A DNA stretch of 64,000 bases from Porogramme epimiltina. Taxonomy: Eukaryota > Basidiomycota > Agaricomycetes > Polyporales > Polyporaceae. Below are positions 29 to 40,715 of the stretch, in pieces. The notes beneath the pieces are model-generated. The model had not been told where the DNA came from. It did no database searches and saw only the letters and a program-made list of their open reading frames with translations. The DNA lies in assembly GCA_900155495.1 (NCBI GenBank), contig FTLJ01000292.1:30905-94904 (forward strand). The letters are read 5' to 3'. Numbering within the stretch: the stretch's first letter is position 1; every line of letters starts with the position of its first letter. The position numbers were made by a program, and so were the translations under genes.

Positions 29-2877
29 ATGCAAGGGCGACCGCTCATCTTCGCCGCGATGGCTGCCGCAGAGGCCGAGGCGGAAATTGCGGAACCGAGG
101 GCGTGGATGGCGGTTGCTACGTCTGAGCCGGAGCTGGAGGAGTTCCACGCGAACGCCGTGCAGACCGAGCACAGCAACGGTTCCAGCCAGTTCGTCAACG
201 GGTACCCTACTCCTCGCTCCGCGTCACCGAACAAGCAGCCCTTTACGAACGCGCACGAAAGCGAAGGCGAGGAGAGAGGTGCGAGGATCGGATGGGGCCT
301 CGGCGGCCAAACTGTCGACCGCGCGACGAGCAAAGAGGATGCGCGGCGTGCGCACAGTCCGCCACTCGCATCCAGCAATTTACCCACCCCGCCGGAGGCA
401 CAGCGACCGCGAGCGCGGAAGCTGAGCAAGTCCAAATCGCGCGTAGCCCGCATGGCGAACTCTTCCCAGTCTGCGCCGCAGACGCCTATACCTTCAGCCA
501 CGTTCGGTGCAAAGCCTCCCACTCCCGTAGAGGATGCGCCACCGTCCAGGAGTAAGGATGCTCCTCCCAGAGGCGGTGTCAAGGCCGTGGCGGGCTCGGG
601 TGGCGCATCCGTCTCCGCGGTGTTGCCAGCTGCTTCCCGCAACGAGAAGCGCGGAGGTGAATCCCGACACCCACCGGGGGCATCGCGTTCTCCTCCACCC
701 CGCGTCATCTCTTCCGAGTCCCCTGTCCCGACCCGGCCAGTCAAGATACTTACCGAGCGACAAATGGAGAAGCTCAGCGCGACAAAAGGTCTCTCCATGA
801 CCGGTACCCACGGATCGGGGCATAACGGCGTGCATCCGCAGCCGCGGCGTGTGGACCCGCCCGCCCCCGCAAAGTCTCACAGCCACTCTTCATCCTCACG
901 CTTGCCTCCCGAGCCAGCGCCGATCGTTCAAACTTCCAATAATCATGTCTCCGACGACGTGCCTCCAGCTACGCCTCCGGGGCGGCCAACCGAGCTTGGA
1001 ACTGTTGGCAGTCCGCGGCGAGATGAGAAGTCCCTTCCCGAGCCACCGTCATCCCCCGATGACTACGCGCAGTCTCGTTCCCGTCGCCGCGGGAAGCCCC
1101 TCGAAAAGGCACGACCGGAAGGTATCGAGAACGTCGCGCCGGCCGCGGACCCGACGCCCGACGACCTCAAGGAACCCACATTCTATCCTATTGAGAAACA
1201 CTTGGCTGAACCGGCGCTCTTCGGCGCGCTCTTGTGGTATCTTTCGTTCACCGACTGGCTCGTGGTGTCCCATGCAAGCAAGTCCATTCGCGCGCTCTTG
1301 TATACTGAGCGCGAACTGGGAGAGCTCGCGCTTGAAAGGTTCCTACGGACAGTTGGATACGCCCGGTGGACGTTTCCGGAGAATGAGCCTCTCTCGCTCA
1401 CCGCGCAGGTATGTGGATATATCCGGCGACATAAGAGCCGATATTAACAGCTATCTCAAGGACCTAAGCGCGTATATGAGAGGCGTCTCACTACCACAAC
1501 ATCAGTTCGCGCGGTTTTCAGACGCATACCTTCACGCGCGCGATCGTCGTCAACGGGATTCTATCCAGATACACCTGCTCCAAGCCGCATGCCGCTCATA
1601 TACGCGTGTTGTCCTTCGCCTCCATGCTCAAGCCGAGGCGGAGGCGCGCAGCGCTCCGGTTGCCGCGCGCGATGGAGCTCCCAGCCCCACGCGTGGATGG
1701 GGCGGTTCAACCACATCCCTTAATCACATACCTAGCCAGGCCGCCGGCCGCCCAGGAAACAAAAGTTTCTCTCGCAGCTCAAGTCGCGCGGCCTCGCCAA
1801 CGTCGGCCTTCAGTCATTCACAGCCAGGGCATACACGCTCAGGGTCAATCCCTGGTGTCAGTCTAGCACAAGGGGCTGTTGTGGCGGGGTTTCAGTCACC
1901 TCTGGTCCGTCTCCGGAGAGCGCCGTTGCTACAGGTGTTTGTGCCGTCACCGGAGGGCGACTGGTTGTCCGATGCAAGCGTGCTGGAGTGTGAACAGGAG
2001 CTGAAACGCGCGGGCGTTACACACTTGCTGCGCGCTGGTGACGTGATCTGGGATACTGCGGTTGGCGACGAAGGGAACGTAGGGCGGCTGGTTTGGGACG
2101 GCAACTATCTCATCGTGGGTCACTCTATCGTGGTTCTGTCAAGTAGTTCGCTCGCGCTCATACACCGTGATACACAGGATCTCGACTATGCTTACTCGCG
2201 AGCGGGCGATCTACCGCGATATCTCCCTACGCTAGCGTTTGCGCCATCGTATTTCCACCGCGTCATCCGTACCATGGGCAATCCAATCTGTCACATTGAT
2301 ATTGCACCCTGGGGGGAGGAGATCGCTGCGAACTTGCAGCTACTCCAAGACAGGATGAAGATGGAGACGTAAGTTTGCGCTTTACGTATTCGCGGCCATC
2401 GCGCTGAAGCTCGTGGGACAGACCGCAAGGCGGACACCATATGGTCGTGCGGTGGGTACACCGCTCGTCATTCACGATCCGCCCCTCGTCAAACGGCAAG
2501 CCGATTCGCATATCTGTGCCGAAAAACGTCGGTCCAGGCCCTGCTCCAGGCGGCGCGTGGCTGGTCGACCCCGGCTGGTATGGCACTGTGGTCGTCGAAG
2601 CCGAGGGCACGAACGAGGGATTGGCCGACCTCCAAGCGCGTTGCCGTGGAGCATTCCCCATCCGAGCGGCTGGTGCGGCTCCGGGTGTCAGCTCGAGCCC
2701 TGACCGGGCGGCCAAGGAAGCAGCTAGGCGCATGGTGTTCAGGATCTTGCGGGAGAGAAGGTGCGGTGCGCTGTGTTCTCCACACTCTGCGTTGCTAACG
2801 CGTTTTTTTGCTTTAGCCGCCCCCAAGAGATATGGATCCGAACTGTAACAGATAAGGAACGTCTACTGCCCCTGTGA
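29..2877 (+). CDS. Ser/Pro-rich protein with possible F-box-like segment (5' end uncertain)
   Basis: Exons 29-1408, 1461-2368, 2422-2760 and 2817-2877 join in phase to 895 residues. All three introns are 52-56 nt with GT-AG ends, and the last has a perfect GCTAAC branch point. Residues 1-380 are low complexity (Ser, Pro, Arg, Ala) and look disordered. A helical, Leu/Trp-rich segment around residues 390-440 (FYPIEKHLAEPALFGALLWY, then SFTDWLVVSHASKSIRALL) has the spacing of an F-box, LP..L...IL.YL...DLL..S..SK.., but is divergent. The C-terminal third is better ordered, with a block from about residue 640 (FVPSPEGDWLSDASVLECE) that I do not recognise. No stop lies upstream in frame before the window edge, so the true start may be outside. 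Function unknown; a substrate adaptor of an SCF ligase is only a guess. Confidence 0.7.
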
Positions 2878-3308
2878 AACATGACACCCTTTGTTGTTGT
2901 CTTAAGGTAGATATCATAAGTGTATTTCAGCCCCCTACCTGTGTTGCTATCGATGTGTTGTGCTTATTAGGTCCTTCATCGTTTTCAAATGTCTGTTTAA
3001 TTCGTGTCTCCTTATAGTATCATCACGCTCACACTGTACGCCTAGTTATCAGCGGCATCTAAAGTTCCATCCTACGATTACCGATTCCGCTGCGAGTCCA
3101 TCCGCAGAAACGAAGTAATAATAGTGATCACCCTTATCCGCATATCTCCCAAAGCGCCGGGCTCATTTCCACATACAGACGCCTATAGCCAGCGCTTTCC
3201 CGTCATCGAAACGAGCTACTGTTTCGGAGCGATGTTAGTTTTGTGCACAACTCTAGGTTCAGAGCCAGAGAAGCTAACCTGGTGCCCGCACACGTCCTCC
3301 GGCTACTT
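2878..3308. other. Intergenic, convergent 3' ends
   Basis: Lies between the stop of the first gene and the stop of the first OB-fold gene on the other strand. It is AT-rich with several AATAAA-like and TTTCAAATG stretches expected of 3' UTRs. I see no gene; the 63-codon open frame near 3124-3315 has no family resemblance. Confidence 0.5.
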
Positions 3309-3921
3309 CTATTGAGCGCAAATATCCCCTATTCCACGGATCATGGAGGTGACATCTGACATGACTTCGGGGGTAGAGAGCTCGCGAAGCTTCCGCGCAC
3401 GCTCCTCCCGGGTCTTCCCCGGTACATGGCGAGCGAGAACATTGTCTTGTCTCTGTATCTCTTCAGACAGACCTAGGATGGGGTTTTCTAGTCATCCCGC
3501 CAACGGATAGAGACAAAACATACATTGATCCTCAGCGCTCAGCGCGCTTTCCATCATCTCAGCTTGCACGCTCTTGAAAACGAGTGCTCCTCTAGAAGGG
3601 AAAAACATGAGTAGTTTCTCGGGAGACCGTAGCGACATGGACGACATACGACCCATCTGGCAACTTTACAAGTTGTAATTCGTCGAGGGCGATAGAGCAA
3701 TTTACGTCTAGCTCGAATGAGCTCATGTTGCTGTAGTCTTCATCATTGAAAAGAAGGTTTGGAGAGAGGAAGATAGTGATGGTTTCGCATTGGAAGGGGG
3801 AGAGGACCTGGACAGAGAGTTTGTATTTGAACTCGGGTTTGCAGAGCTCCTTGAACTCCTTCACTGTAACGGTCCAGGGTGTGGGGTGTTGTGAGGCGGC
3901 GTTAGCAGATTTCCAATCCAT
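3309..3921 (-). CDS. RPA70N-like OB-fold plus coiled-coil protein, array member A
   Basis: Exons 3650-3921, 3524-3591 and 3309-3472 (read on the minus strand) join in phase to 167 residues. Residues 8-110 have the strand order of the RPA70 N-terminal OB fold: an opening VTVKEFKEL strand, a central YKLSVQVLSP hairpin, CSIALDELQLVKL, and the last strand GALVFKSVQAEM. That last strand is encoded by the small second exon, and would be lost if the first exon were read on to its in-frame stop. The third exon gives a charged helix (LSEEIQRQDNVLARHV, REERARKLRELS) ending in a TPEVMSDVTSMIRGIGDI segment. Intron phases are 2 then 1, as in the four other members. There are no zinc finger and no further RPA DNA-binding domains. 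Role unknown; RPA70N binds acidic peptides of repair factors in RPA. Start chosen at MDWKS because upstream codons are not conserved in character. Confidence 0.6.
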
Positions 3922-5464
3922 GGTTGTGGAGATGAGCGGACTGAGCTGTGGGGAGGTGAAAACAATGGGAGGGCATTTATATCTCGACAACAGGACGGTA
4001 CAAGCGTCTCCGGATACTTGTATCCGGATGGACGATCGGTCAATAAGCCGCTGCCAAAACACACGAGCGTGCTCACCACCACAATGGGCGCTCCGTTCAC
4101 GGTGTGTCCACGACGAGACATTGATGATGGGCAGGTATGTCCAATCCTTCCAGCCCGTTCCCGACATCGGTGACTCGGGACAGAAGACTTCGAAGGGATA
4201 ACGTCAGGGAAGGAAACATACGGGTGATTGTGGAACGCGCTTGTGAGACGCAGGGTTCAGTGGCGTTGAGCTATCCGTGTCACGGAATGAGATGAGCCCC
4301 GAGATATCCGCAGTGCGCCTGAATAAAGTCTATTGGCCGGTTTACATAGGCCCAACACAGATAGGCTTACTGCATGACACGTGTCACGGTATTCTTCCAT
4401 TCATCATTATGTACCTCAAGCAACGTATCGTCCTAGTCTCCCGTAGCTTTCTTCGTCTGTTAGTCGAGTGGATGGTGGACAGCCTCGTGAATGGAAGGGA
4501 CTTACAAAGGTACTCAAGCCCGGCAACCGCCCGAGGGCTAGACGGGAACTTCCGGAACCAGGTCCAACACCGACCGAGGTGTGGTCTGATTGACCTGGTT
4601 GCACAGACTCGATTAGAATGATACGGCGTCATAAGGGGTAATCGGGTCAATCCTGTGAACGTCCCCCTGTACTTTGCAAGATGGCGACATCTTGAACACG
4701 ACTGTGATTACAATGCTGCCTCGCTGGCGATTCTTGACGTGGGCTGCCAGTTCATGAGACTAGATCAGTATGGCGTAGTGCATTAGAACATACATAGATT
4801 GACTATGTACTGTCGGTTAGAACACTAATCACCGAAAAGCCTCGTCTTTAGCATTTGCCATTGATTAAAAACCTTACGGCAGTGAACGTCGTCAGGGTCG
4901 CCAAGACCTGGTTAGAATAGGCCACGCGGCCCACTGTCATGTTCGATCACACCACAGCTACCATTGCGGGCTTTGGGTAAAAGGTGGGCTACCGAAGAAA
5001 CGGCCAGCGATCGGAGAAGGGGCGAACTCCCATAGCAAGGTTCCATGTGGCAGGAACCAACTTGCGACGCAGTATACATTGAGTACGGCATCAATTTAGC
5101 CAGCATCTCGGACATAGCCGATGACGCCGAGGTTGGTAAGCAAAACGTGTCGCCTCCCAACACTCGGGCCCGGGGCCTTCTATCAGTGCTTGTTGTTCCG
5201 GTTCGCTGCAAAATGCACTATCCATCGCACTCATTCTAATTGCCATGTAATATACTCGATTAAGATGTATACACCAAGAGAACCGAAAGTAGAATTTCTC
5301 CTGTACTCCATTGCCGTTGGGGTACACTTCTCGGAACACTTCCTGTACACAAATGCGTGGTCATGTTGGAAATTGACGTATCCTGGTATTGTCAAAGTCA
5401 GTAACGCCCCCGGGGTTCTATTCATCACCGCCACTCGCCCATAGATTCCCATTTTCCCTCGACC
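3922..5464. other. Intergenic spacer of the OB-fold array
   Basis: About 1.5 kb of AT-richer sequence holding the upstream region of member A and the 3' flank of member B. Several short open frames exist on both strands, but none has splice structure, a recognisable domain or similarity to the array proteins. I see no intact gene and no repeat boundary. Confidence 0.45.
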
Positions 5465-6130
5465 TCATTCGGCATCTGTGACCTGGTGCACCACCTCGTC
5501 GTATTGCACGGTCAAAACATCCGTCTGGAGACGGTTCAACTCGTCTGAAAGGTCTGGTTGTACAACCGCGTTAGTTTTATGGGGTCACCGGAGCATGTTA
5601 TCAATGGAAGCCTCACTCCAACGATCTCGAGGGAGAATTTCCAAGATATTAACGACGATTCTAGGGTGGGAGATATCAGCATCCGTCGAGCTCCTACGCC
5701 GTAGTGTTTTCTGGTCTGAAATTTGTTACCTCGTTTGGCCCTCGAATTGCACTGGAGAGTACTTCCTCAATATGATTACGCATCCGTCCTGTAGTCGAAC
5801 TTGTTCATCGCCGAGGTAGTGGCTCTGGACGAGGTCTTCGTGGCATTCGAGGAATACGGTCACTGTGTTGTTGTTGCCGTCCTTGATATCGCATTCGTGC
5901 TCGACATCAAAATTACCAACTTTGAACCCTGTAATCTCGCGTAGTTTGACCATCTGAACAATCGGGTTCTTGACTGGCCGATCCGAGTTTATACGCAAGA
6001 CAGCGTCGTGATGGGGAGATGGGGTCTGCTGAGGGGGATCCATCGGCGAAGGTGAAGAGGTAGCTTCTGTGGGAGGATATGGAACGATAGGCCGTTGTTG
6101 TGTACCGTCGGCCCAGCGAGGTTTTATCAT
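5465..6130 (-). CDS. RPA70N-like OB-fold protein, array member B
   Basis: Exons 5730-6130, 5617-5660 and 5465-5553 join in phase to 177 residues. After about 45 residues of Pro/Ser-rich leader comes the domain: NPIVQMVKLREITGF matches the P-(V/I)-(V/L)-Q-(V/I) first strand of RPA70N, followed by EHECDIKDGNNN (the SDG-type turn), a TVTVFLEC strand, GCVIILRKYSPV, and the exon-2 strand RIVVNILEIL. The tail (LSDELNRLQTDVLTVQYDEV) is the shortest of the five. Intron 1 is placed with the acceptor CCCTAG at 5661-5662 (69 nt); an earlier acceptor would leave only 36 nt. The GTGAGG donor of intron 2 and its ACTAAC branch point are both clear. Intron phases 2 and 1 match the paralogues. Function unknown. 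Confidence 0.6.
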
Positions 6131-7649
6131 GTTCAGACCCCCGAGCGTTACCTGTTGCTCACCTAATGTTCGTACACATTGCAGCTACGAAAGGTGTAGG
6201 ATCCACATACTGCGATGGCGCGCTGTAATGAAGGCCACCGCATGAGGCTACGTGGTTGACGGTGGTTGACCTTATCCTGGAAGGTGCCAGGCGTTGTTCC
6301 ACCTTCACGACATCCTAATCTCATGCTGTGATACACATAAATGTCCAGGTGACCTTAAGACAGCCGCGAAATTCTAGGTAGTCAATGGTAGTTAGTACAC
6401 CAAGCAATATCCAAGCGATCGACACGCGGACGACTTCATGCGCATAGAAACTTGGTAATCGCTGGCATATGATCTATACCCTATGAAGTTTCAAACGCTT
6501 GGAACACGGTCAGCCAATAGTTCGTGAGTACACATAGTTGCCTTACACGGCGGAGGTTGCCACACTTAGCACTCAGGTGACCGGTGTAGACACATTACGT
6601 CGTTTCACTCTCTGCCACCAACGCTCAACAGCGCTTGTACGCTGCAGAAGCCTGTGATAACATATGACGTCCTATCAGCCTCAGAGGTTTAGAAAGATAT
6701 TGTACTCACGCGGTGAATGGAATCAGGGCAAGACGCGTTGCGCCTTCAACCACAATGACTGTGCCGGTGGTTCATCTGATGTCTATGTCTTTTTTTGGGC
6801 GATGCTCGTAGGATATTTGGAATGAAGAGGCTAAGCTGAGATGGAAATGAGATGATTTCACTTCATTTTATCCCAGGTCTTGCGCAGATATCCAATGACC
6901 TTGAAGCGCCCATGCGGAGGCGGGGCGCTGCAAGTTAGCGCAGATGCCAGCATTGGGGCCGTATAACGTCTATAGAGCAACCCAAGAGCGATTCAGCAGG
7001 TCATTCATGGAATGAGGGACAACTCCGCCCGACAAAACCGCAACGCATCGGGTAATTTGGAAGTCATCCCCCGCGGTGACCCATGTCAGCTGCCACCAGT
7101 GTAATCGAAAATGGCGCGAGCGAGCATTCCAAACGGTGGGGTCTACAGACGATAAAAGTTAGCGACGACAGCACCGACAAAGAGACTCCGGCACAGACGA
7201 CGCCTCGAAGCTACAAGCAAAAACACCTCTTACACCCCTATGAGATGGGGAGTGGTGAAAGATGCCAACCCAAGTTCAACTTCGTCGAGAGTTGATGAAA
7301 TTTTGTCACGTGGCCTTACCTCAGGCTGCTAGCGCCAAGTTGTAGCTTGACAGATGCGGTTCGCTGGTCTTGGCGCCATAGCTTGTTGCACGCCCCCTTA
7401 GTAGTCAGGCGCAAACAAGGTCCTATGTGTCGTCTCGCACCGCAAATTGCTTAGCTCTGACTAGTAACACTACACAGGATAAGCACAGCTGATAAACCAC
7501 TAGGATTTATAGGCTGACTTGTCTACCGCTGACTCCACACATCCCCCCCCTAAAGCGGGACTACGATCCTTGGTCTCACGAATATACGGTGATCATACAA
7601 AAAGGGTCAAGTACAAGCACTCGAAAACTGCCCCCTATAGACTTCCAGC
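6131..7649. other. Intergenic spacer of the OB-fold array
   Basis: About 1.5 kb with no recognisable gene. It should contain the promoter of member B (right after 6130) and the 3' region of member C. The 70-codon frame at 7083-7295 starts with ATG but has no family resemblance and no intron signals. Confidence 0.45.
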
Positions 7650-8356
7650 CTACTGATTGACTTCCCCATCACCGGACATGCCATCTGTGGTGACGCGCGC
7701 GAGCTCGTTAATCATATTCTGGGCCGGACGAATTGTCTCCGCGACGCCGTCGCGATCGATGTTGGCCAATACGCGTTCAGTCCTCCTCCTGCGGTCTTCT
7801 AGCCGCTGCAGCTCTTGTTCCTCTCTGTCAATCTTCAAGAGGATCTCTGACAACAATGTGAATGGTATCAGTTACAACCCCTACTTGGGAACGAGAAAAT
7901 CTCTCACCGTCTGATTCAAGGGGAGTAGCCGATATTCCAGGGGATCCTTCGTATGTATTCAGCTCCTTCACCAACACTACGCTAATAAAAACGATGCCTC
8001 TCGGCTCAGTTCCACAGAAAATCTAGCAAGAAGTTGATCGTGTCTTACCTCTGATCATTGACAGCTGGCACTCGAATCATACGTTTGAGTATGATGGCGC
8101 CGTGAAGGTTTCCACCCCCATAACGCCTTCCATTGACCTCAAAATTCTGGGGGAGCACGAGCCGGGTCCTGCCTCCGGCGCCGTCGACGACAACGAGCTC
8201 GTACTGGACTATCAAGTTACCGAGGTTGAAAAGCTGAGGGAGCTCCGTGAAGTCTTCAATTGTGACCTCAGGCTCGGCCACGAGGATATCCAAGTCGTTA
8301 GGGTCGTTGAGACGGTGGCAGGGGGTACCTGCGGCAGGGGTGTGGTGTTGAGCCAT
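7650..8356 (-). CDS. RPA70N-like OB-fold plus coiled-coil protein, array member C
   Basis: Exons 8049-8356, 7908-7981 and 7650-7846 join in phase to 192 residues. The domain runs from about residue 20: EVTIEDFTELPQLF, then IVQYELVVVDGAGGRTRLVL (turn GAGG in place of SDG), NLHGAIILKRMIRVP, and the exon-2 strand SVVLVKELNTY. A short acidic linker (GSPGISATPLESD) leads to a strongly charged helix, EILLKIDREEQELQRLEDRR, then RRTERVLANI, which is the best coiled coil of the array. The chain ends in an IRPAQNMINELARV segment comparable to the end of members A, D and E. The splice model is supported by GTAAGA and GTGAGA donors, and phases 2 and 1 recur. Likely a small soluble, perhaps oligomeric, protein. 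Function unknown. Confidence 0.65.
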
Positions 8357-9474
8357 GTTCGCTGTGTCAAAGAGCGGCGTTTTGCTCTGGAGATCCGGGA
8401 GTATTTATCTGAAGCCATTCAGCGCCCTTGAGCTTGCCCGGATATTTGTCACACATGGTTAGGACGCTGAGACATTCTCTATGGACGAAGACTACTCAAA
8501 TGGGCGACTAACTACCACACTGTCGCGGCACTTATAGCCGCGTATCCCAGAATGACATAGTGATGAACATCCAGATACAGTTATGATGCGCATAACTTTG
8601 CATAATATCTATGGTTTCCAGAAGAATCACCCTCGACTTGGAGTTCATGCGGAGCGCAGTAAGGTCGAAGGGCATGCCTGCACTGTTAATCCACACTCCG
8701 CAGCCTCTTTCCTTTATGAGGATATTCATATCCGCTCATATCGAAGCGGAACACAATCGGTTCGTGTCAAGTTATGACCGTCATGTAGGAATGTCACCGT
8801 GCCGCATAGGTACGTGACACTCAGTAGAAAAAGAGGGACCAATCTTCGTCTGTGCTTGATTCTGTGATTGAGGACTTCTGACCCCCGAAGGTCGTCACGC
8901 TGATATGTGATGAAGAAGCATAGAAGTGGTTCGTGCTCTTGATGGCTATGTAGCCGTAAAATCTTAGCAGAAGGTTCTAGACACGTAGAACCACATGTGA
9001 GGGTGCCGAGATTCCGGGTCGCCCCGCCTTGTTTGTGGTCAAAGTCGACAGTCTAGCGTTCGATGGGCGTCAGGAAGGCTCTTAAGGCTCGCTGGCCTGA
9101 TACGCCTAGATCTAGAATTAAGGTGAGGAAGCCGCTCCGACGTGAAGCGACGCTCACCACAATTTTGAGTAGCTGTCGGAAGCATATTCACACGTAAACA
9201 GGCCCTAAATAATACATATTGTCCAGACACTTGAACCTTACGACAAAGCGGAATCGGATGGGCAGCAGAGCCTTTGTGGGAAATGGATTGCATTGTGCAA
9301 AGGCGTCTCATGGACTTGGTCGTGTAGAATACGAGGTGTGAATTCGAGACCGACCACTCCGTATCTAACATATTCTGTAGGAAACACTGAAATAATCTCG
9401 AACTGCTGTCTTATGTAGCGAGAAAAATTAATGCTGCTATCTCATTAAGTGAATCTAAAGCGCACCATTGCTCC
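8357..9474. other. Intergenic spacer of the OB-fold array
   Basis: About 1.1 kb between members C and D. Minus-strand frames at 8532-8729 and 9039-9371 are open, but their translations are composition-driven and lack the array's motifs. No gene seen. Confidence 0.45.
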
Positions 9475-10187
9475 TCAGCCTCGCGTGGCTTCTTCACCAT
9501 GCCCTTGGATGAAGATTTGAAGCTCGGCCATGAGTCTAACTACTTCTTGTTGATGCCCCAAGGTGGGGGATATAACGTCGACCAATCGCTGAAATACAGC
9601 CTGGGCATCCTGGTCCGCTTTCTCGCGCTGGACCTGCACACTGTGCAGTCGCTGTTGTAAGGCTACGAATTACATGGGGTGTTAAAGGGATAGCGGATCG
9701 AATGAGGAGAACAGGAGCTAACTGAGCGGCTGGTGTTGACAGAAGACCTCGACGTCGTGAACGTAGATCATGTTGCTTTATAGGAGAACATAGCCATTAG
9801 TATAGAGAGAAGACGTTGGCTATGGCTTATAAGCTACCTTGGAGGAGGGAGACGGAGCATGCGTTGCACCGTGATGATAGCACCGTTCGTGAAGGTGCAG
9901 TCTGAAGGTCCATTGACGCATTCGTGGCCTTTCACGGCTTCGCCCCGAAGGGCTACGTTGACGACTTGGCCGTTACCGTCTTCGAGAGTTGCATGATAGT
10001 CAAGCTGTAGACCGTTGGTCAGGGTAGGAGCCGCGAGGGGCGTAAGGGTGTGGACGCGTAGAGTGGGGTTGGTTAACAGGACTGTATGGTCGGTCAGGTC
10101 ACCGAGCCTGGCGCAGGTGTTGAGAGTGAGGGCGGCCATGACTGAGCTGCTATGGATGCTGTCGTCGTAGGGCTCTTGCTGAGACAC
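9475..10187 (-). CDS. RPA70N-like OB-fold plus coiled-coil protein, array member D
   Basis: Exons 9838-10187, 9723-9775 and 9475-9662 join in phase to 196 residues, close to member C. The fold is readable as TLRVHTLTPL, LQLDYHATLEDGNGQVVNVA (turn EDGNG), NGAIITVQRMLRLP, and the exon-2 strand NMIYVHDVEVF. The third exon gives LQQRLHSVQVQREKADQ and a VISPTLGHQQEVVRLMAELQ tail that parallels the P..V..V...I end of the sister proteins. Introns are 62 and 60 nt, with branch points in TACTAAT and TTTAAC contexts, in phases 2 and 1. The start at 10187 is the outermost ATG; an internal Met at residue 17 is possible. Function unknown. Confidence 0.65.
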
Positions 10188-11423
10188 TTATATGCTGTCC
10201 CAGAGACTCGAACGAAGTCGCCCTAACGAATTCGGACATCCTCTGAGAAACGCGGGAGAGCCACGGAACGTTTCTGGGGTGAGAACGACCGGGACACTCC
10301 TGGCAAAATGGGAGGCACATCGACTTGTCGTTACCGGCGCTCCCAGACGGTCACATCGTCCATGCTACCGTGTAAACTGTCAAACAGCCAGATGAGCCAC
10401 TATGCCAAGGGGGGAATGCGGCTGAGATGCCTCTTGACTAAACACCTTTGGCTATGAGCGGAACCGAGCGCGATTTCCTCCCACCGCAGGCTGTCAGCCC
10501 CCGACGCCCTACGTTGCCACAAGCCTAGCGAAGGTTGAGGGAAGCAAAAGGCTGTTCCTACGTGAAGTGGATTTGATTAGCACTTGCATCTTCGTACTCG
10601 GACTGTCCCATGCCGGCTGCACCCAGCAGGAGTGCGGGGACGGATTAAAATTTTTGGTCCATGTTCCTCTCTTGCACGCAAGTTCGCTGTCGTTACGTCA
10701 CCGTGCTAGTGTACAATGAAGACAGTATGCGCCAGTATCGAGTACGGCATGTCGACACGGCAAGTAGACTAATGCCGAACTTGCCGTTATTCGAACGTGC
10801 GATCATGATTAGCATTGCAATTGCATGCAGGGAAAGTGGACTTTGGCGGCATCCCGCTTACCATAAGTTCCGTTCCAGCCCGGAGTTTGCACCTGTCTCT
10901 GGAACGCCAACATTGCATAGGTGAATGGAGGCTATTAGTTCCACCGTGGTGCAGCGACAGAAAAGCTCACTGCGTAACATGATCCCACTTGCTCCCAATT
11001 GTGCTAGCGTTACGCGCGTCACATATTATCAGGGTTTGAACGGATATTATTTGGGGTAATTTATAGGACATGGCACAGTTCATTTGTTCACTTGCATGTG
11101 TTCAGTGAAATATCCAGTGATGCCGCGACGCAAACCTGAAATATAGTGTCAGAATAGCCGGATAGGGGATCATCGATCACTTCCCGTAACGAGATCTAGA
11201 AAAGGTACGGCTGATAACTAAGAAGCGCGGAGATGAGGCTTATTATGTCACAACACATGTTCTTGTCCATGTGGTTACAGGTGCGAGCGGAGGGTGTCCC
11301 AATGAATGACTGCTAAAGATGATGTAGCACACAGCCGCAATAATACAATATATTACACACCCAATTTGCCGATATCCTCAGAATGGACATGTTTGGGCCA
11401 CCGGAAGCCCGGCGCACGGAGCG
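10188..11423. other. Intergenic spacer of the OB-fold array
   Basis: About 1.2 kb between members D and E. No coding pattern or repeat stands out. The 87-codon plus-strand frame at 10661-10924 has no recognisable features. Confidence 0.45.
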
Positions 11424-13797
11424 CTATATTGGGCTGACACTCATTACGGAGTCGGTTAAGTCCTCGATGCGCTCCATGACCTCCAGAACAGCGGGCGCGA
11501 TCGCATCCCTCCTGTGTAAGTCGGCGCATACGTGCGCGAGGGCACGCTCTAGAACGAGCCGGTTCTGACGCTCCTCCTGGAGACGCATTTCGGCTAGGAG
11601 GCGCTGGGCACGCTCCTTCTTGAGCGCCGCAGCCGCAGCTCCGTCAACATCAAGCACTGAATCGGTAACAATTAGTATCACTTGCGGGTATAGTAGATTA
11701 TGCGGAGCGTAGCTCTGGGGCACTCACGCGTGGGGGGGCTCATCGAGTGGGGCACCGAGTGGACCGATGGTGACTCGAGGGCGTTGGACGAGAGCTTCAT
11801 CGTGATCTCCGCCACCCTCTTAGGACGTTCAGGCCGCACGTTGACAAGCTCGAAGTCGCGAACCAGGACGGCACTGTCGGGAAGGCGGGTAGAACGTTCG
11901 TGAGCGGGCGATAGTAATAATAGAGTCGAAAGTACCAGGCATCGCCAGGCTCGAGCCTGTTAATGTTCTTGAGCTTCGCGACTGAGCCAATTTGCAGGTG
12001 GTCCGCATTCCCGAAGCCGGCGATACGGCCCTGTAGCGTAGGTGCGAGTGCGATCCATACGTATCCACGGCCGTCCGTGACATACGCTTCGTACGCTTTC
12101 GCTTGATTGGGATGTCCGACCGGCCCCGGATCAACGCCTCGTAGAACGAGGATCTGAACGACAGGGCATGCGGACAAGATGGTGTCCTCAGAGCGGTCTC
12201 GGAGCCGGTCACACGAACCGGCCGTGAGGGATATTGCTGGCGGCGAATAGGATGGCGCTGCCTTTGGAAGAGACGGAGCCGCTGGCGAGAGCGGAGCGCC
12301 GTGATCAGTGGCAGACCACCGACTGGGCGCCGGCGATCGTTGAACAGGGGCGGGGTCCGAATGTTCCTGCGAAGTGGAGCCGCTGAGAGGCCACAAAAGA
12401 GAAACATCGCGTAATAACTCACCGTCATAGTATGTACGGAAGGGGCAAGACTAGGGTTCGAAGACATTCCTGGGACGCACCCACCGCTATCCGAAGGTGC
12501 GCTCCAACGACCAAGTTCCGGTGCCGCCATCATGCCGCCCGCTGGAGACACCGTCGGAGTCCCGGCTGAAGATATCGTCCGGACGCTGTCTAGAGGAGCC
12601 GCCCGTGGACTGCCTGACGACGTGGCGGTAGAAGGCGTTATAGGCTGTCTTGGAGTGGTCGCGGCCATCATCGGGAATGCACCTTTGTTGGTCGCTCCGC
12701 TGCCCGATACACCGTGTTCCTGTAGCTGGACAGATGGAAGCACAGGCTGAGCTGGTGAGGCTTTCGGAGGCTGCTGTGGAGCAGGGTGCGCATGTGCCCT
12801 ATGTGATAGCTCCACAACCTTGGTTTGTTGTGTCCCTTCTCGCGACTGTGCCGGGGTGTGGGCTGGTAATGTTGGGCGAGGCCGCGATGTGACTGGTACC
12901 ACTACCTCTCCACCTGCGCTAGTAGGCGGAAGTCCAGATCGCGTTGCTGGATTTAGAACTTCGCGCGCACGATCCATGGTGCCTGTGTCAGTTGACCGGG
13001 AGGTTCTGGCCGTCTGTGGTTGAGACGTGGATGCAATGGTCCTGGCGCTGCTCTGAGGTGGCCGTTGAGCGGGGCCACTGACCGCAACGTTGGCGTTGGA
13101 AGTCGCGCGGGAATGTTCCGTTTCTGGTGGAACGTCTTTAGTGGGCAGCACTGCACCTGTATTCCTTGGACGAAAAAGTGGGACTTCCGGGGCTAACTTG
13201 TCCATATCCCATACCCGGCCGCTGGCGAGTGGGGAGTTAGCGCAGGTAAATCGGAATACGCAACACACGAGACAATACGTACTCTTCACTGTAAAAGATG
13301 TTTGCTCTGGAACCACGCTGTTATTTCTGCGCCTTAATGTTGACGATTCGATACGCACATCATACGTTCCGACAGTGTATCTTTGACCTCTTGCTGAGTT
13401 AATGCTCGCCGAACCAAGTACTGGATGGCGTAACAGATATCCTACGAAGACGAAACGGTCAGTGAGGCGAGCGCGTCTCAGAAGAACAGAAGGTGCTCAC
13501 TATGTGCAGCCGGGGGTATGTACCCCTAACTTGGCCAGTTCCCCATACGACTTTACATTCTGTCAAAGGCATTGTGCCTAAAGAGAGCGCTTGTAGATCC
13601 GCCCGGAATTCATCCACAATGGACGCTTCCATCGAATCTCTTCTTGATGGGTCCTTGGTTGTCTGTAGCGCACGTGCTCGGCTGCCCATATACTGGATCC
13701 ACACTCCTGGCTGTTTGCGTTCCGGGGTATTCACATGGCCAGCGTCCCGTGCGAGTGATTGTGACATAGCTGAACGAAGGAGGAGCCTGGCAGGCAC
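11424..13797 (-). CDS. Large RPA70N-like OB-fold protein with N-terminal extension, array member E
   Basis: Seven exons (13501-13797, 13366-13441, 13279-13306, 12423-13221, 11936-12366, 11728-11873, 11424-11656) join with every phase closing to 669 residues. The N-terminal 130 residues form an ordered region I do not recognise (TECKVVWGTGQVRG, DICYAIQYLVRRALTQQE). Next come about 300 residues of Pro/Ser/Thr-rich linker. Then comes the clearest RPA70N-like domain of the array: ACPVVQILVLRGV, YEAYVTDGRGYVWIALAPT, LQIGSVAKLKNINRL, and the last strand AVLVRDFELVNV in its own exon. The C-terminus is a long Arg/Glu/Leu helix (KKERAQRLLAEMRLQEER) ending in AIAPAVLEVMERIEDL. The last two introns sit in phases 2 and 1, as in members A-D. 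The 28-nt third exon is the weakest part of the model. The start could be the second Met at 13767. Confidence 0.6.
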
Positions 13798-39310: not shown

Positions 39311-39913
39311 GGCCGTGATTACGGTTGGGCAGACCGAGGGAGGGCGCGCCGGCGCCAACGGCCCCCATTATCCTGCAGCTCAGGCTCCCGCCCCCTCAAT
39401 CACGGCGCGACGGGGCGGGGTGCCCCCCCGATTGTGCTTCGTCCCGACTCCCGTATCGTCCTAGTCTCCATTTCGTTCGTATCTCGTGACCTACGGTGCG
39501 CGGATCGTATATATAGCGTACGGGGTGCCGCTCTACATCTACACTTCTCTCGCTCGTTTCTCTCTCATCTCTCTTGGGGACTACCGTCTGGGCGGCCCCG
39601 AGTCTGATCCCCTCGAACCCCCCACGGCGTCCCTCTCCTCGACTCTCTCCGACTCTCCCCTCAACATCAACAAACCCTTGCTCGCGGCCGCTACGACTCC
39701 CGTCGAGGGCGCCGCAGGCCCCGGTGAGTCCGTCAACCCCGTCACCCCCGTCGCTGACCCCCCTCGTCCCCCCAGCGTTACAGCCCTCAGTCGCGAGCAG
39801 CGTGCGCTCAGCGCCCTCACGCGCCAGTACGTCGAGTACTGTGTATGGAGCATTCGCTCCAAAGCCATGCGACGGCCCGATGTGATCCATCGGTGAGCCT
39901 TGTCTCGGCTTCC
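39311..39913 (+). promoter_or_regulatory. TATA-led spliced leader of an unidentified plus-strand transcript
   Basis: GTATATATAG at 39508-39517 is followed by a CT-rich start-like tract (39536-39575). There is also a textbook intron: GTGAGTCC donor at about 39723, GCTGAC branch, CCCCAG acceptor ending about 39774. A further donor (GTGAGCC) sits at about 39893. No ATG occurs between the TATA box and 39845, so any protein would start at 39845 or beyond the minisatellite. The 136-codon frame starting with GTG at 39486 has no recognised domain. The region is also upstream of ATG12 on the other strand. Confidence 0.35.
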
Positions 39914-40715
39914 CACCCCCGCTTCAAGAGCGGTGCGGGTGGAGATTCCACCCCCGCCTCAAGAGCGGCGCGGGTGAGTGCTTGTACCCCCGCCTCAAGG
40001 GCGGTGTGGGTTATAGCTGCCTGGTACCCCCGCCCCTAGGGCGGCGCGGGTTAAGGCTCTGCCTGGTACCCCCGCCCCCAGGGCGGCGCGGGTTATGGCA
40101 AGACCTGGCATCCCCGCCCCTAGGGCGGCGCGGGTGACGGCTCCGCCTGGTACCCCCGCCCCGAGGGCGGCGCGGGTTATGGCTTCCACCCCCGCCTCAA
40201 GAGCGGTGAGGGTGAGGACTTCTACCCCCGCCTCGAGAGCGGTGCGGGTATGGCCACGCCTGGAACCCCCGCCCCAAGGGCGGCGCGGGTGATGGCTCCG
40301 CCTGGTACCCCCGTCCCAAGGGCGGCGCGGGTTATGGCTCCACCTAGTACCCCCGCTCCAAGGGCGGTGCGGGTACGACCACGCCTGGCACCCCCGCCCC
40401 AAGGGCGGCGCGGGTTATGGCTTCGTCTGGTACCCCCGCCCCAAGGGCGGTGCGGGTTATGGCCTTGCCTGGTAGCCCCCGCCCCAAGAGCGGTGTGGGT
40501 GATGGCTCCGCCTAGTGCCCCCGCCCCAAGCGCGGCGCGGGTGACGGCTTCACCTAGTACCCCCGCCTCAAGAGCGGCACGGGTTATGGCTCTGCCTGGT
40601 ACCCCCGCCTCAAGAGCAGCGTAGGCGATGGCTTCGCCTAGTTCCCCCGCCCCAAGCGCGGCGCGGGTGATGGCTCTGTCTCCCCCCGCTCCAAGCGCAG
40701 CGTGTGGTGGGGTAT
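39914..40715. repeat. GC-rich minisatellite, about 20 copies of 36-42 bp units
   Basis: I count 20 units built on TACCCCCGCCCCAAGGGCGG followed by CGCGGGTTATGGCTCCGCCT with substitutions. Most are 42 bp, a few 36 bp, so both sizes keep a reading frame. Each unit contains CCGCCC-CAA-GGGCGG or a variant, a six-base-pair hairpin with a three-base loop. The forward frame reads as repeats of APPGTPAPRAARVM and the reverse as repeats of TRAALGAGVPGGAV, but stops interrupt both, so coding is doubtful. Spacing and contact between units without unique spacers exclude a CRISPR array. Confidence 0.95.

Follow-up and report, generated by a model that had tools for sequence, protein, structure and literature searches.

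Five consecutive genes in a 64,000-nucleotide stretch of Porogramme epimiltina (hereafter the window; contig FTLJ01000292.1, positions 30,905 to 94,904) raise a two-part question: have copies of RPA70N, the N-terminal oligonucleotide/oligosaccharide-binding (OB) domain of RPA1, become free-standing proteins, and if so, what would they bind? RPA70N is a hub which recruits repair and checkpoint proteins. A preliminary description of this DNA held that all five genes (A-E) encode RPA70N-like OB folds with a C-terminal helical tail, which could serve as decoys or adaptors for the acidic partner peptides of RPA. We favour, with a probability of about 0.6, a family derived from the start of RPA1 whose members are now single-OB protein-binding modules with altered ligands. 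This reading rests on the mutual relatedness of B-F, the similarity of E to RPA70N, a shared phase-2 intron and the loss of two arginines, R41 and R43.

The five genes do lie one after another on the minus strand, spanning 3309-13205 (Table 1): reading of sequence and frames gives intact spliced frames and GT-AG introns throughout. A-D have three exons apiece, encode 148-192 residues and contain introns of 51-69 bases. The four-exon model of E runs from a proline- and threonine-rich N-terminal region through the OB domain to the tail; from the OB exon through the next two introns the model follows the pattern of A-D, and its 5′ end (first exon and start) was placed by eye and is uncertain. The family extends beyond the array: a query with B found a sixth member, F, on another contig (36% over 56 residues), and F in turn retrieves B. 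Across these six intact frames, 12 GT-AG introns fall at shared positions, and in every gene the codon usage fits the annotated frame better than either of the remaining forward frames. When reverse frames were scored for A-E, one of them outscored the annotated frame in B, C and D, but it contains 2-5 stops. A TATA-like box stands 53-85 nucleotides upstream of the ATG in A, B, C, D and F, against a background of 70 of the 1778 ATGs in the window, the motif and the start codon of B having been picked post hoc; neither candidate start of E has such a box.

B-F are mutually related. Scored against a profile that left it out, each of them gave a value that none of 999 shuffles reached (B 41.3, C 29.6, D 25.6, E 23.4 and F 42.6 bits); identity of the paralogues to B is very low, at 14-24%. 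A scores 0.9 bits against the profile of the other paralogues, which 15 of 999 shuffles reach, and it is placed in the family because of its array position and intron pattern: it is a member through gene structure and position, not by sequence alone. Single-protein searches and the Pfam model PF04057 (Rep-A_N), run over the 41.9 Mb of this genome, returned A-F and RPA1 and no further paralogue; the first stage let 1-4 candidates through per search, and paralogues of greater divergence could have escaped. The compact genes and short introns of the genome have a fungal, probably basidiomycete, look.

The RPA1 gene of the same genome (at C106) has an N-domain which exceeds the PF04057 cut-off and a second exon that, by eye, encodes the next RPA70 domain. 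We combined it with 13 sequences from an environmental protein collection, which comprises predicted open frames of unnamed samples and species, into an RPA1 N-domain profile of 14 rows; the own sequence and P0007 are identical over the N-domain exon. E scores 19.4 bits against this profile, a value reached by none of 1999 shuffles, and is top of 2937 open frames after RPA1. The other paralogues are singly not clearly above shuffles, which reached their scores 29 (C), 82 (D), 221 (F), 282 (B) and 687 (A) times in 1999, bearing out the earlier view of E as the clear relative. With RPA1 alone as the model, E reached 9.6 bits (0 of 999 shuffles), while shuffles reached the scores of D, C, B, F and A in 7, 9, 71, 357 and 778 cases of 999. 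A profile-profile comparison of the family with the RPA1 N-domains gave a probability of 85 and an E-value of 6.2e-6 over 48 columns.

The Pfam model was expected to match E significantly and misses it: PF04057 scores B alone, at 17.2 bits and under the cut-off of 26.7, and the other five paralogues go unmatched. On the collection relatives of B it gives 14.3 bits for P0001, 12.9 for P0002 and nothing for P0003. A PDB search with the paralogue profile returned eight rows at chance level, RPA70N not among them. The proposal of an RPA70N-like OB fold in all five genes stands in part: B-F are related and E matches the RPA70N profile, but A is not supported by sequence.

The strongest tie to RPA1 is an intron, which bears on descent and not on function. 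A phase-2 intron lies right before the last OB strand in all six paralogues and in RPA1, at places that are, by eye, about one codon apart at most. Among the 13 RPA1 exon predictions of the collection, eight stop exactly after Q-x-R/K-R, which is the place of the intron, and five extend 5-37 residues; the eight ends suggest that the RPA1 intron is old. An additional phase-1 intron is common to the six paralogues and absent from the modelled second exon of RPA1. No other RPA70 domain (OB-A, OB-B or OB-C) was found by Pfam in A-D or in E from the OB exon onward (the proline-rich first exon of E lay outside the scan), which agrees with the initial picture of genes that carry the N-domain without the rest.

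In human RPA70N, partner peptides are bound via R31, R41, R43 and R91, and mutating these arginines lowered partner binding (PMC10479964). Positions 31/41/43 are K/R/R in 14 of 14 RPA1 rows; in the paralogues they are R/E/E (B), T/Q/E (C), T/D/H (D), R/A/E (E) and T/D/T (F). R41 and R43 are thus replaced in all five alignable paralogues (B-F), A not being alignable there. None of the six has a basic residue at the position of R91, which was located by eye with the intron as a guide; B has an arginine one residue later. The net charge of the OB domain is -6 in A and B, -5 in C, -4 in D, -1 in E and 0 in both F and the own RPA1. We read these differences as a probable loss of RPA-type ligand binding in the paralogues.

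The C-terminal tail is present in A-E, and F is almost tailless. Its helical nature, part of the preliminary description, is weakly supported: of 500 shuffles, 465 (A), 26 (B, with an earlier exon junction), 29 (C), 120 (D) and 41 (E) equalled the heptad scores. Coiled-coil tails were considered and set aside, the heptad scores not being clearly over shuffles.

We propose that the first exon of RPA1, along with the beginning of its second, was copied, and that the copy would then have been duplicated and have strongly diverged. Each product would be one RPA70N-derived OB barrel, mostly with a C-terminal tail. The groove of the barrel may still take short peptides, unlike the acidic partners of RPA, and the proteins would serve as small modules for binding other proteins, not as binders of single-stranded DNA or RPA decoys. 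A role on single-stranded DNA, also raised in the preliminary description, is conceivable but finds no positive support here. If this is right, fold and gene structure were kept while the partner-binding arginines were dropped, showing a hub that was copied out and given new ligands; the proteins being small and single-domain makes the idea testable.

Relatives of the family occur in the environmental collection. Family profile searches retained 5 of 2628 candidates (E-value up to 1) and 5 of 404 (E-value up to 10), six proteins in total, each nearest A, B or E. A control search with RPA1 retained 13 of 15 at 52-98% identity; all its search words came from one sequence, so it is not a matched comparison. 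Identities are 73.6% for the A exon, 75.5% for the A tail, and 97.1, 86.6 and 81.9% for B exons; the E exon matches at 78 of 79 residues in its single relative, changed at the start residue only. Among the B variants, P0001 and P0002 are identical over a first stretch of 31 residues and have 15 differences in the following 74 (Fisher 0.0048); B and P0003 have 15 differences in 60 residues followed by 4 in 45 (Fisher 0.0415). The same cuts are not significant for B-P0002 (0.26) or P0001-P0003 (0.068), and the comparison covers three variants at the protein level with breakpoints chosen by eye after inspection. On these patterns the B variants look like mosaics at the protein level.

The patterns just described, together with a tandem array of strongly diverged copies, would suit a diversifying recognition family, in which copies swap sequence and evolve under conflict or self/non-self recognition. 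This is the least improbable of the alternatives, but still unlikely: the mosaics come from three protein-level variants and post hoc breakpoints, two comparisons are not significant, and the E exon is the same in its one relative, start residue aside. The decoys or adaptors first suggested, which would bind acidic partner peptides in competition with RPA1, are improbable because R41 and R43, which all 14 RPA1 rows have, gave way to other residues in all five alignable paralogues. RPA70N ancestry speaks for them, as do the arginine retained at position 31 in B and E and the arginine of B at the intron-split codon, which matches the second R of the RPA1 G-R-R; against them stand also the residue preceding that codon (R91 by eye), basic in none of six, the net charge of -4 to -6 in A-D, and the reduced partner binding of the human arginine mutants (PMC10479964).

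A still smaller chance attaches to decaying, nonfunctional copies of the RPA1 5′ end. Such copies might be expected to show identities to B of 14-24% and a member as barely recognisable as A; but six frames are intact with 12 introns at shared positions, TATA-like boxes stand at five genes, and profile conservation is family-wide. Open A, B and E exons in environmental assemblies point the same way weakly, because the collection contains predicted open frames only. This genome has a Pot1-like gene at L029 (C229:64500-69500), whose N-terminal stretch may correspond to OB-N, the additional OB fold reported for Pot1 of basidiomycetes. That fold, rather than RPA1, is a very remote candidate for the origin of the domain: OB-N binds protein and shows no measurable DNA binding (PMC9119445), and a Pot1-like gene is at hand, but none of the open frames at the Pot1 locus matched the family or RPA70N profile (top score 0.1 bits, with the family profile), and the probable N-terminal region of the gene reads through as a single long frame in which no intron was seen. 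Tested as the source of the family, Pot1 OB-N found no support.

We retain RPA1-derived single-OB modules with altered ligands as the preferred reading. A bolder version, in which RPA70N-derived domains with their cleft charge removed or reversed, freed from RPA and exchanging sequence between tandem copies, would form an undescribed recognition or regulatory system of a fungal lineage, is speculative and rather doubtful. The free-standing family is possibly undescribed: like the preliminary description, we know of no report of such an array, none having been found in the open-licence literature by partly narrow searches, with subscription papers outside their scope.

Table 1 Positions of the genes and related segments (window coordinates unless a contig is named).
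Feature	Position	Strand	Description
Gene A	3309..3921	-	167 aa; exons 3921-3650, 3591-3524, 3472-3309; divergent OB-like member with tail; intron phases 2 and 1
Gene B	5465..6043	-	148 aa; exons 6043-5730, 5660-5617, 5553-5465; RPA70N-like OB with short tail
B OB region minus last strand	5732..6007	-	folded with AlphaFold2
Gene C	7650..8356	-	192 aa; exons 8356-8049, 7981-7908, 7846-7650; OB with charged tail
Gene D	9475..10139	-	180 aa; exons 10139-9838, 9775-9723, 9662-9475; OB with tail
Gene E	11424..13205	-	model of 516 aa; exons 13205-12481, 12382-11936, 11873-11728, 11656-11424
Segment X	13206..13767	-	open frame, ATG at 13767, one probable intron
Gene F	C371:17415-16900 (L016:9416-8901)	-	125 aa; both shared introns; C-terminal tail almost nil

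Segment X may be a small gene of its own or belong to E as its 5′ exons; its best Pfam match is RecX_HTH1 (E-value 0.039, under the cut-off). The G+C content is 0.50-0.54 in each of the five 2-kb bins from 2001 to 12000, and 0.59 in the whole window. A minisatellite at 39913-40676 repeats a 42-base unit about 17 times; on a six-frame translation of 950 bases around it, it may or may not be partly coding. Frames with IF-2 and CHORD matches lie about 6-9 kb beyond F.

Compared with known systems, the paralogues share with RPA70N (PF04057) the motifs of strands 1 and 2 (Y or H at position 42, D48-G49), an OB-like strand pattern and the phase-2 intron to within about one codon. They differ in being free-standing, without the later RPA70 domains, in having lost R41 and R43, in the net acidity of A-D, and in adding the phase-1 intron and, F excepted, a C-terminal tail. 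The RPA1 paralogues of plants are named RPA1A-E. They too are duplicated RPA1 genes, for which divided roles have been suggested (PMC4731521), but they are RPA1 subunit genes, whereas the array genes are single N-domain copies. Basidiomycete Pot1 OB-N offers a parallel in function: it is an OB fold which serves protein binding, its DNA binding being not measurable (PMC9119445), yet it belongs to a four-OB telomere protein and has no profile similarity to the family.
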